A stretch of DNA of 64,000 nucleotides from an uncultured archaeon (GTDB taxonomy: Archaea; Thermoplasmatota; Thermoplasmata; Thermoplasmatales; Thermoplasmataceae). Position 1 is the first letter of the stretch; each line of letters begins with the position of its first letter. A program made the translations under genes and the position numbers. The notes below the pieces were generated by a model. The model searched no databases. It worked only from the letters and a program-made list of their open reading frames with translations, and was not told the DNA's origin. This document shows positions 128 to 21,198 of this stretch, in pieces. The stretch lies in contig CP009479.1 in the NCBI GenBank assembly GCA_000965745.1, positions 1,932,457 to 1,996,456 on the forward strand. Direction: 5' to 3'.

Positions 128-694
128 TTACCGCATCGGAGCAGGTATCCTCTCGATTCGTGAAAAAAGAATAAATGAGGTGTATTTGTCATTGCTGAAG
201 AAGGCGTCCTGCTCTATTCCTTCAACTTCAAACCCATTGTTGATTAGGACCCTCATGGATGCAAGATTTCCTTCAAGAACCTTTGTCTGAAGCCTTCTCA
301 GTTTGAGCTCCCCGAAGGCATAGTTGCATGCAAGGCCGACAGCCTCCGTAGCTATCCCTTTGCCTCTGAACTGGCGTCCCACCCAGTAGCCGATATGCGC
401 CTTTCTGTCAAGAAAATTTATGTCACTAAGCCCGACAATACCAGCTGCCCTGTTCTTGTAAAGAATGAGGAAGTCCACGGCAAAGGGAACTGATCCCGTA
501 TCCCTGTTCCTCTCTATGAATTCCACTGCATTCTCGACACCATAAGGGTGAGGGAAGCTATGGGCACCAATTTTATCCCTTATTTCTATATCGTTTGCCA
601 GAGATGCTATTTCTTCCGCATACCTGATATCGATAGGCGAATCCAGGGTGATATTCACCCCCGTTAGCTTAGTAAGTCTAGATACACTGGACAC
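128..694 (-). CDS. GNAT-family N-acetyltransferase (RimJ/RimL type)
   Basis: A 188-residue protein with the acetyl-CoA pyrophosphate-binding signature of GNAT enzymes, VGRQFRGKGIA at residues ~105-115, followed by the helix typical of the family (AVGLACNYAF). The motif NLASMRVLINNGF near residue 143 is the usual C-terminal Asn-Ala-Ser-containing strand of the RimJ/RimL branch. Such enzymes acetylate N-termini or small amines in the cytoplasm; the substrate cannot be read from sequence. The start shown is GTG and is divergent from the next gene, with ~95 bases of promoter space between them. Confidence 0.85.
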   Translation of the reverse strand: MSSVSRLTKLTGVNITLDSPIDIRYAEEIASLANDIEIRDKIGAHSFPHPYGVENAVEFIERNRDTGSVPFAVDFLILYKNRAAGIVGLSDINFLDRKAHIGYWVGRQFRGKGIATEAVGLACNYAFGELKLRRLQTKVLEGNLASMRVLINNGFEVEGIEQDAFFSNDKYTSFILFSRIERIPAPMR

Positions 695-18184: not shown

Positions 18185-19324
18185 CTACCTTACAAAGGGC
18201 TCCGGCATGGATTTGATAACATTATAGACTTCAAGCCTCATCACTTCAGGAGGAGGAAGCTGTTCGGAACTTATGATCTCCCTCAGCTTTGTCCCGCTGA
18301 ACCTCTCCTGGTATGAAGAGGGATGTGCACACTCCCTGTCTGTTACAAGCTGCTCGCATTTTCTGCAGTAGAACGTCTCCTCGAAAGGCACTATGCTTAT
18401 ACCGAGGTCATTGAAATTTCTGAGATTTTCCTGCGCCTCATAGGGTCCGTAAAAAGATCCCACGCCGGCATGGTCCCTGCCAACTATGAAGTGGCTGCAT
18501 CCAAAGTTCTTCCTCATTATTGCATGCATAACAGCTTCCCTCGGGCCTGCATACATCATCTCATAATGCAGTGGAGTTAGCAGTACCTTGTTGGGTGGGT
18601 AATACGATTCTACAAGGGCCGAATACGCCTTCATTATGGCCTCGTCCGTATAGTCGCCTTTCTTCTTTCTCCCGATTACGGGATTGATGAACAGGCCGTC
18701 CGTTGACCTGAGTGAGAGCCGCTGAATCTGTTCATGACCCCTGTGTGGCACATTTCTTGTCTGGAATGCCGATACAGTTGTCCACCCTCTTTCCGAAAAT
18801 ATCTTCCTGGTTTCCTTGGGAAATAATGTATCGGAAATAAACGGCACCGCAACGTTTCCGGCAGCCGTTATTTTTCCTGCCACAGCGACATTTCCTGCCT
18901 CCTGCACTTTTGCGACGCCGGGATGGTCTGCTGAATTTGTTCCAAAAACGCTCTCTGAATGCTTCTTCTTGTCGTACCTGTAGAGCTGGGATACTTCGAT
19001 TTCAGCGATAGGATTCCCGCCGTATGAAAGGACTGCCGTATCTCCCTCCCTGACCTTCCCGGACGAATCCTCGCCGATGCCCATCATTATGGGAATACTC
19101 CATGGAGTTCCGTTTTCAAGCCTCTGTTCATTGAGAATGCTATGATAATCGTTCTCTTCAACAAAGCCTGTTATGGGACTCAGGATCCCGTTCTTGATAT
19201 CCATCACGGTTACTGCGGTTTCATAGCTTACTTCTATGAAGCCTTTATAATCGGAGCGGTCCAGGCTGTCCGGAGACATGTCCCTTATTTCAACGAGTTT
19301 TCCTCCGTGTGGCATTGGAAGCAT
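18185..19324 (-). CDS. sat: Sulfate adenylyltransferase
   Basis: A 379-residue ATP sulfurylase of the archaeal/dissimilatory-type Sat family. The nucleotide-binding QTRNVPHRGHEQIQ block with its HxGH motif, and the GRDHAGVGSFYGPY motif, are intact. A CRKC...C cluster near residue 315 is the zinc ribbon common in thermophile Sat. It makes adenosine 5'-phosphosulfate (APS) from ATP and sulfate in the cytoplasm. The ATG at 19324 overlaps the last base of the upstream APS reductase gene, so the two are one operon for assimilatory sulfate reduction. Confidence 0.95.
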   Translation of the reverse strand: MLPMPHGGKLVEIRDMSPDSLDRSDYKGFIEVSYETAVTVMDIKNGILSPITGFVEENDYHSILNEQRLENGTPWSIPIMMGIGEDSSGKVREGDTAVLSYGGNPIAEIEVSQLYRYDKKKHSESVFGTNSADHPGVAKVQEAGNVAVAGKITAAGNVAVPFISDTLFPKETRKIFSERGWTTVSAFQTRNVPHRGHEQIQRLSLRSTDGLFINPVIGRKKKGDYTDEAIMKAYSALVESYYPPNKVLLTPLHYEMMYAGPREAVMHAIMRKNFGCSHFIVGRDHAGVGSFYGPYEAQENLRNFNDLGISIVPFEETFYCRKCEQLVTDRECAHPSSYQERFSGTKLREIISSEQLPPPEVMRLEVYNVIKSMPEPFVR

Positions 19325-20097
19325 CAGTTTCCACCCCCGTTGCTTCCGCTTTCATGATTATTGGCCCTGAATTCGGGAGCAGCGCCCCATGAGGAGCTGT
19401 CCTTGACGTGCAGCCCGCATTCCTTGACGTCTGTCTCCCACCACCATCTCCCGGCGCGTTCGCCTTCCCCTGGCTTGACTGCCCTGGTGCATGGGGCACA
19501 CCCGATGCTTGGGTATCCTTGATCATGGAGGCTGTTGTACGGGACATTATTCTTCCTGATGTAATTCCAGACCTCATCGGACGTTAACTTCAATATGGGG
19601 TTCACTTTCACCAGGTTACGCCGGGAATCCAATTCAAGAACCTCTGCATCCTGCCTGAAGCTGGTCTGGTCTGCCCTGAGGCCGGTTACCCATGCTTTCT
19701 TCCCTTTCAGCAACCTGTTCAGGGGTTCCACTTTCCTTATTCCGCAGCATAGTTTCCTGTTCTCCACAGATTTGTAGAAGAGGTTCATCCCTTTGTTCCG
19801 GACCATTTCCTCGACCTTCCCAAATTCCGGGAAGTATGACCTTATAACTACTCCGTAATTGGACGCCACTCTGTCCATGAGTTCGTAGGTCTCCTCTGGC
19901 AGCCTTCCGGTATCAATTGTAGCTATGGGAATCCGGACATCCTTCTTCGCCATCATGTCTATAACAACCATATCTTCAGCGCCGAAGCTTGAAGTAAATA
20001 CTGCATCTTCCCCGAAACTATTCCAGGTCCACTCGAGTATCTCCTCTGGCGTCAGAGCCTCGATCTCTGGATAGTTCTCTTTCAGTGACATATGCAT
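19324..20097 (-). CDS. cysH: Adenylylsulfate (APS/PAPS) reductase, CysH family
   Basis: A 257-residue PP-loop enzyme. The nucleotide-binding FTSSFGAEDMV motif lies at ~34-44. Two cysteine pairs, CC (117-118) in KLCCGIRKVEPL and CxxC (200-203) in IGCAPC, are the four ligands of the [4Fe-4S] cluster diagnostic of APS-preferring reductases. The C-terminal KECGLH carries the catalytic Cys (227). It reduces APS to sulfite and AMP using thioredoxin-like donors. First gene of the cysH-sat operon. Its promoter region is flanked by GTGGGAA repeats and is shared divergently with the ComA-like gene. Confidence 0.93.
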   Translation of the reverse strand: MHMSLKENYPEIEALTPEEILEWTWNSFGEDAVFTSSFGAEDMVVIDMMAKKDVRIPIATIDTGRLPEETYELMDRVASNYGVVIRSYFPEFGKVEEMVRNKGMNLFYKSVENRKLCCGIRKVEPLNRLLKGKKAWVTGLRADQTSFRQDAEVLELDSRRNLVKVNPILKLTSDEVWNYIRKNNVPYNSLHDQGYPSIGCAPCTRAVKPGEGERAGRWWWETDVKECGLHVKDSSSWGAAPEFRANNHESGSNGGGN

Positions 20098-20130
20098 TAC
20101 AATTCCCGTGGAGCATATTAGCGCTTGTTT

Positions 20131-20157
20131 GTGGGAAGTTTAAGTGAGTTGTGGGAA
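20131..20157. promoter_or_regulatory. Direct repeats flanking the cysH promoter
   Basis: GTGGGAA occurs at 20131-20137 and again at 20151-20157, exactly 20 bases apart (about two helical turns). The TATA-like box of the cysH-sat operon (TTTAAG at about 20139-20144, read on the minus strand as CTTAAA) lies between them. A related inverse half-site TTCCCGTG is at about 20103. The arrangement suits a repressor that blocks TBP/TFB binding. The divergent ComA-like gene has its own TATA box near 20175-20182. Confidence 0.4.
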
Positions 20158-20208
20158 CTAAATGCGCATATGTCAACTATTTAAGCACCCTCTCATTAAT
20201 CAGGGTGA

Positions 20209-21198
20209 ATGATTTCAAACAGATTCCTTGGTGACCTAATCCCGTTGGAAAATGACAGGAAGGGGCTGGGAAATACAATGGTTCTTGACAGGCTGGCACC
20301 CATAGACTGGGAAATCCTTCCCGACCTTGCATCCTTTATCAGTGTTGTGAAGATAGGCTGGACACTGCCCCTGCTTCTCAAGAGAAGCACGCTGGTTGAC
20401 AGAATCAGCAGATACAGGAAATCCGGGGTATCAGTATCACCTGGAGGAACACTTCTTGAGATGGCAGTCAACAAGGGAAGGGCGGACAAGGCTCTCGAAT
20501 CAATCAGGGATGCCGGTTTTGACACTGTTGAGCTGAGTGAAGGAGTCATTGATGTGCCTCCCTATATAAAGAAGGGAATAGTTGATTTTGCCCATTCAAA
20601 CGGAATGAGGCTGAACATAGAGGTGGGGAAGAAGAATCCGAGAAATCAGCTGAGCCTCGATGAAACTATACAGAGGGTTTCTGAGTCCCTGGATTTTGGC
20701 CCTGATTTTGTAATCATAGAAGGGAGGGAGGCGGGACGGAGTGTTGAGATTTTTGACGACCTCGGTGACATCAAATGGGACTGGGTAAACAGGATAATCG
20801 AGGAGTATCCCCGGAACAGGATAATGTTTGAGGCACCGATTGAGAAACAGCAGATCGAGCTGGTGATAAGGCTTGGATCATCTGTAAACCTGGGAAACGT
20901 ATCATTCAACAGTGTTGCTGCACTTGAGACACAAAGGCGCGGCCTTCGTGGTGACACTTTTGGAGTTGTTGACAACACAGTGAAAGTCTCGGGTCCACCC
21001 TCAAACAAGTTCGTCTATTACATAGTCGCAAACCATGGCCCGATTGATCAGGCCTCCATGATGGATCTGACCGGGATGAACAGGAAAACTGTGCAGAATG
21101 CCTTGACTGAACTGCTAGAGAATGGCCTGATAAAGGCAGCCACTGACAGGAAGGACCTGAGGAAGCGTGTTTATTCCATAAATTCCGGCCTGCAGTGA
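20209..21198 (+). CDS. ComA-family phosphosulfolactate synthase-like protein fused to a winged helix
   Basis: 329 residues, ~80 longer than usual ComA. Residues ~1-252 match (2R)-phospho-3-sulfolactate synthase: PGGTLLE (78-84), EVGKK (138-142), EGREAG, MFEAP (206-210), VNLGN and GLRGDT (245-250). ComA adds sulfite to phosphoenolpyruvate. Some usual residues differ: DKG is DRL near 27-29, SDG is SEG near 110. Residues ~266-329 form a winged helix (PIDQASMMDLTGMNRKTVQN, then ALTELLENGLI, then a basic wing), of a type used in transcription regulators. It is divergent from the sulfite-producing cysH-sat operon. It may consume sulfite, sense it, or both. A TATA box near 20178 makes it leaderless or nearly so. 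Confidence 0.8.
   Translation: MISNRFLGDLIPLENDRKGLGNTMVLDRLAPIDWEILPDLASFISVVKIGWTLPLLLKRSTLVDRISRYRKSGVSVSPGGTLLEMAVNKGRADKALESIRDAGFDTVELSEGVIDVPPYIKKGIVDFAHSNGMRLNIEVGKKNPRNQLSLDETIQRVSESLDFGPDFVIIEGREAGRSVEIFDDLGDIKWDWVNRIIEEYPRNRIMFEAPIEKQQIELVIRLGSSVNLGNVSFNSVAALETQRRGLRGDTFGVVDNTVKVSGPPSNKFVYYIVANHGPIDQASMMDLTGMNRKTVQNALTELLENGLIKAATDRKDLRKRVYSINSGLQ

Follow-up and report, generated by a model that had tools for sequence, protein, structure and literature searches.

A ComA barrel fused to a predicted winged helix and encoded divergently from cysH-sat in Thermoplasmatales is a probable regulator of sulfite supply

Results

A ComA-winged-helix gene divergent from cysH and sat

The window, i.e., the whole 64,000-nucleotide stretch of archaeal DNA analyzed here, carries an open reading frame of 329 codons with an ATG start and a TGA stop, which is divergently oriented from cysH with 111 bp between both start codons (Table 1). 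The encoded protein covers positions 9-243 of the 243 of the PF02679 model, that is, the full-length ComA (phosphosulfolactate synthase) domain, and reaches 215 bits against the TIGR03849 equivalog, below its curated cut-off of 280. An AlphaFold2 model computed from an input alignment of 58 sequences (mean pLDDT 89.4) consists of a barrel followed by a winged helix, and its top Foldseek match was 1QWG, the ComA of M. jannaschii (TM 0.88 by target length, 38% identity). A sequence-only reading of this DNA had placed ComA and a winged helix in one open reading frame, which the Pfam match and the model confirm. As in enzyme-derived one-component transcription factors, an enzyme fold that is a candidate sensor and a helix-turn-helix are thereby present in a single chain.

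Table 1. Features of the fusion gene and its divergent neighbors (positions in the window)
Feature	Position	Strand	Basis
sat, ATP sulfurylase	18185..19324	-	NF003166 448 > cut-off 387
cysH, assimilatory APS reductase type (CC..CxxC motif)	19324..20097	-	TIGR02055 258.4 > 235.3; NF002537 289.4 > 154
Shared divergent promoter region, cysH / fusion gene	20098..20208	.	Arrangement kept in 35/40 loci
Candidate operator repeat TTGTGGGAA, copy 1	20129..20137	+	Direct repeat vs shuffles
Candidate operator repeat TTGTGGGAA, copy 2	20149..20157	+	Direct repeat vs shuffles
Likely TATA box of fusion gene CTATTTAAG, about 28 nt before ATG	20177..20185	+	Probable, as read from the sequence
ComA-winged-helix fusion gene, 329 aa	20209..21198	+	ORF, Pfam, AlphaFold2
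ComA barrel, residues 19-249	20263..20955	+	Pfam PF02679 E=3e-62, 1QWG match
C-terminal winged helix, residues 264-324	20998..21180	+	AlphaFold2 model and invariant residues
Recognition helix, about residues 292-304; wing, about 308-324		+	AlphaFold2 model

Residues ~269-322 of the window protein matched MarR_2, TrmB and MarR weakly, all under the curated Pfam cut-offs (MarR_2 20.5 vs 27), and a match to MsvR was likewise weak (5.4e-5). Among 58 relatives, MarR_2 was found in 37 and TrmB in 16 at E<1e-3. The modeled domain has the H-H-H-E-E order of a winged-helix fold (helices 264-276, 281-288 and 292-304, strands 308-312 and 320-324), with pLDDT values mostly of 84-95. P264, F268, Q281, R292, T294, Q296, L302, D316, R318 and Y322 are invariant in 95 homologues, and the column entropy of the recognition helix (1.19 bits vs 1.57 bits for the barrel) places it among the most conserved segments. 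As judged from these alignments, the recognition helix is under strong constraint.

Distribution and origin of the fusion

ComA was present in 37 of the 117 genomes of the order, and the helix domain was found in every intact ComA gene that was read; those not intact were the ComA of G109, broken by an assembly gap, and that of G096, with internal stops in a half-complete genome. Canonical-length ComAs from family f25 of the same phylum (L151-L156) and from bacterial and haloarchaeal plasmids (L173-L181) stop a short way past the barrel, so that the C-terminal region cannot be dismissed as an extension common to all ComAs. In a maximum-likelihood tree built on the barrel only, all 64 non-redundant fusions fell on one side of a single branch (support 100/96), which indicates that the fusion arose once, as far as the data show. 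Among the named carriers are Ferroplasma acidarmanus Fer1, Ca. Sysuiplasma, Ca. Lutacidiplasma, a Cuniculiplasma MAG and Nitrososphaerales/Thaumarchaeota MAGs. Relatives in genome contigs were found by an alignment-based scan, a single-sequence scan having given none. We also observed, on the Legionella lytica plasmid NZ_CP071528.1 (318583-321495, L175), an annotated phosphosulfolactate synthase of ~970 aa in which a long N-terminal part precedes ComA.

Gene neighborhood

A divergent cysH, usually followed by sat, accompanied the fusion gene in 35 of the 40 loci of the order, belonging to 12 genera and encoding ComAs 45-65% identical to that of the window; the loci without it were L041, L050, L063, L068 and L070. 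It was also present in 37 of the named loci, drawn largely from the same genomes. ComA and CysH occurred together in 35 of the 117 genomes, ComA alone in 2, CysH alone in 0 and neither in 80 (Fisher p about 8e-28 without a kinship correction), and in one of the two ComA-only genomes (G062) cysH is split over two frames. The link to cysH-sat claimed by the sequence-only reading thus holds both in gene order and in co-occurrence, and both the C-terminal domain and the divergent partners recur across the order. As in enzyme-derived one-component regulators, the fusion gene shows a conserved linkage to the pathway of the ligand presumed for its sensor.

Other lineages offer further neighbors. UDP-sulfoquinovose synthase adjoins the fusion in two Nitrososphaerales MAGs, L107 (592 > 575) and L078 (572.8, just under that cut-off), the latter gene (L078:7477-9762) being interrupted by a LAGLIDADG insert that is probably an intein. 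In L102 and L106 the divergent neighbors are genes of an SsuA-family sulfonate transporter (216 and 203 > 163.5), L148 has APS kinase-sat-fusion on one strand, and L121 has sat-fusion. The shared theme of these neighbors is therefore sulfite or sulfonate. L050 and L099 have no adjacent cysH and the fusion stands beside sugar-nucleotide or glycosyltransferase genes. Genus g4 has second ComA-winged-helix copies, of which those in L111 and L116 have a Ras-like GTPase gene as divergent neighbor in place of cysH and a third (L108) lies at a contig end. In many soil Thermoplasmata cysH is not nearby and the neighbors (amylase, ROK, SDR) are without a sulfur link; together with the second copies of g4, these loci limit the claim.

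Repeats in the promoter region

The two TTGTGGGAA copies of the window are spaced at 20 bp (p about 0.02 against shuffled sequences) and flank a TATA-like TTTAAG stretch on the cysH side. A search for the exact pair with 8-16 bp between the copies gave a single occurrence in the 2.23-Mb genome. No second TTCCCACAA pair was found elsewhere in the host genome, and no copy of the TTCCCACAA motif in a 17-kb stretch around the UDP-sulfoquinovose synthase gene. An inverted repeat, CACCCT...AGGGTG (20186-20207), lies between the likely TATA box and the ATG of the fusion gene (p about 0.05 against shuffled sequences).

Direct repeats in 29 non-redundant divergent regions showed enrichment at a spacing of 33 bp (z 4.25), a peak that none of 150 shuffle sets attained at any of the 46 spacings. 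Further peaks near 11, 20-22, 43-44 and 53 bp form a helical series that was noticed post hoc. Such a pattern was absent from 91 control intergenic regions, with 0.06% of their sets matching the peak at 33 bp and 0.56% doing so when all spacings were considered. For 36 further upstream regions, an independent set lacking a divergent cysH, 32 bp was the largest of the 46 spacings, 33 bp alone not being raised. Spacings of 32-33 bp correspond to about three helical turns; the repeat motifs differ between lineages, and the spacing in the window is 20 bp, not 33. A shared inverted-repeat operator showed no enrichment over shuffles across 37 regions. TTCATATA/TTTACATA elements that precede many fusion start codons by about 27 nt were considered as operators and rejected, given that one copy is probably the TATA box. 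Elements resembling TTCCTGCGCA were observed upstream of the fusion gene in soil Thermoplasmata (L117-L150), where several loci have one copy close to the start codon and another upstream, at a distance of about 32 bp.

Residues of the ComA pocket

We compared 95 fusions with 13 canonical ComAs (M. jannaschii numbering). About 94-100% of the fusions keep D20, K43, W46, G74-G75-T76, E79, E103, S105, E133, K137, E168, R170, E171, G173, E205, P207, Q212, N227, R240 and R244. The canonical invariants are not all retained: K209 is E in 95 of 95 fusions and T48 is L or I in 91 of 95, both positions being nearly invariant among canonical enzymes, and G22 is replaced by L, M, I and others in a group-specific manner. 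New invariants of the fusions include W190, W192 and an IKWDW motif. The changes of DKG to DRL and SDG to SEG pointed out earlier in the window protein are indeed present, but variation at K21 and D106 is found in canonical ComAs as well, and the group-specific changes are those at G22, T48 and K209. By barrel topology these three would lie in loops after strands 1, 2 and 7, respectively, the expected active-site face. With most invariants kept and these positions changed, the pocket looks preserved yet altered. Judging by residue conservation, it likely binds a ligand; catalysis by the fusion protein is uncertain, and that some of it remains is somewhat less likely than not.

Fate of sulfite

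No NIR_SIR sulfite reductase was recognized in the complete genome of the host or in 32 of the 35 CysH genomes, an absence for which this enzyme was rejected as the sulfite outlet; a sulfite reductase of an unrecognized kind is possible in the host. The host has a UDP-sulfoquinovose synthase (635 bits > cut-off 575; G000:C1:1054189-1055337, L185:8190-9359), whose gene is located beside one for a sugar-1-phosphate nucleotidylyltransferase. Since this synthase is present and a recognizable reductase is not, sulfite itself is probably the product. Accordingly, of the earlier term "sulfate reduction operon", the divergent cysH-sat pair stands, but "sulfite-producing module" is the better name for a host without a recognizable sulfite reductase. 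The synthase was detected in 35 of 37 ComA genomes and in 35 of the 40 family genomes without ComA too, and was rejected as a ComA-specific partner.

Agl3 of Sulfolobus acidocaldarius is described as forming UDP-sulfoquinovose from UDP-glucose and sulfite (PMC4388408), and N-glycans of Thermoplasma acidophilum have been reported to contain 6-C-sulfofucose (Vinogradov 2012, cited in PMC12448462). We infer that Sat-CysH here serves mainly to supply sulfite for sulfosugars. A ComB-like phosphatase (PF04029; G000:C1:375747-376343 in the host) was considered as a linked pathway partner and rejected, as 91 of the 117 genomes of the order carry one regardless of ComA; being common also where ComA is absent, these genes probably have another role.

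Discussion

The fusion protein is probably a ComA-derived one-component transcription factor that senses sulfite and/or PEP and regulates sulfite supply. Taken part by part, a DNA-binding regulator of this locus is very probable from the sequences, and the chance that the signal is sulfite, alone or with PEP, is somewhat better than even. Good support for the regulatory role suggested earlier comes from the conservation of the recognition helix, from the divergent promoter and from the upstream repeats and sulfite-related neighbors. In the mechanism that we propose, a barrel that in ComA handles sulfite and PEP would have been joined once to a winged helix, which would bind the repeated elements in the divergent promoter and control cysH-sat (sulfate to APS to sulfite), and probably the fusion gene as well. 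The barrel would be the sensor, its most likely ligand being sulfite in combination with PEP, or else phosphosulfolactate, the product. In the simplest scheme, a build-up of sulfite would lead to ligand binding, a change in oligomeric state and shut-off of sulfite production, and this toxic metabolite would be held at the level needed for UDP-sulfoquinovose synthesis.

A locus regulator that senses something other than sulfite, e.g., PEP alone, sulfate, APS or another sulfonate, is rather unlikely: the T48 and K209 changes could alter the choice of ligand and the neighbors include a sulfonate transporter and APS kinase, but what the sulfur-linked neighbors most closely share is making, using or releasing sulfite, and the substrates of the parent enzyme are sulfite and PEP. 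The conservation of both pocket residues and DNA-binding helix would also suit a bifunctional protein, an active phosphosulfolactate synthase that regulates its own locus like the trigger enzymes PutA and BirA. We regard this as unlikely, given the group-specific K209 to E and T48 to L/I changes and the fact that no dedicated downstream sulfolactate pathway was found linked to the fusion gene.

Still more doubtful is a working phosphosulfolactate synthase that traps the sulfite of Sat-CysH as phosphosulfolactate and uses the winged helix only for oligomerization or protein contacts. K137, E168, R170, E171, S105, Q212, N227, R240 and R244 persist in about 90-100% of fusions, the host carries a ComB-like phosphatase gene and its sulfite has no recognizable reductase outlet; against this, recognition-helix and wing residues are invariant and ComB-like genes are common also without ComA. 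The substitutions at the otherwise invariant K209 (95/95) and T48 (91/95), in loops after barrel strands, further weaken a sulfite-trapping role. A chance neighbor or annotation artefact, for which no supporting point was found, is refuted by an arrangement kept in 35/40 loci of 12 genera at 45-65% ComA identity.

Compared with ComA (PF02679, TIGR03849; M. jannaschii 1QWG, B. subtilis 1U83), the barrel of the fusions is alike over its whole length and nearly all invariant polar residues are kept; they differ in the added C-terminal winged helix, the IKWDW motif and the replacements of K209 by E, T48 by L/I and G22 by L/M/I, and the window protein scores under the TIGR03849 equivalog cut-off. 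Enzyme-derived one-component regulators include BirA, a biotin ligase with an HTH, and MocR/GabR, an aminotransferase with a wHTH. As in these, a metabolic enzyme fold and a predicted DNA-binding domain share one chain encoded beside genes of the matching pathway; unlike them, the fusion is archaeal, uses a ComA barrel, carries the helix domain at the C-terminus instead of the N-terminus and belongs to a sulfite pathway, its DNA binding being predicted. MarR/TrmB-type archaeal winged helices and MsvR match the helix domain weakly, that of the window protein under family cut-offs, and their sensor domains are unrelated.

No report of a ComA-helix fusion was found in the open-access literature searched, and an open-access search for sulfite-responsive regulators gave nothing. 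The enzyme-derived regulator is a known kind, and its ComA-based family seems not to have been described in the open-access papers covered. We consider it evenly balanced that the fusions form a new archaeal regulator family whose ComA barrel senses sulfite (with PEP) and controls its supply for the synthesis of sulfosugars of cell-surface glycans, possibly while still catalytic.

Annotating the fusion genes plainly as "phosphosulfolactate synthase" would mislead. If the proposed role is true, the fusion is a directly testable sulfite sensor and one more case of an enzyme turned regulator, and it would suggest that Sat-CysH goes no further than sulfite in these organisms, feeding sulfosugars rather than sulfide.
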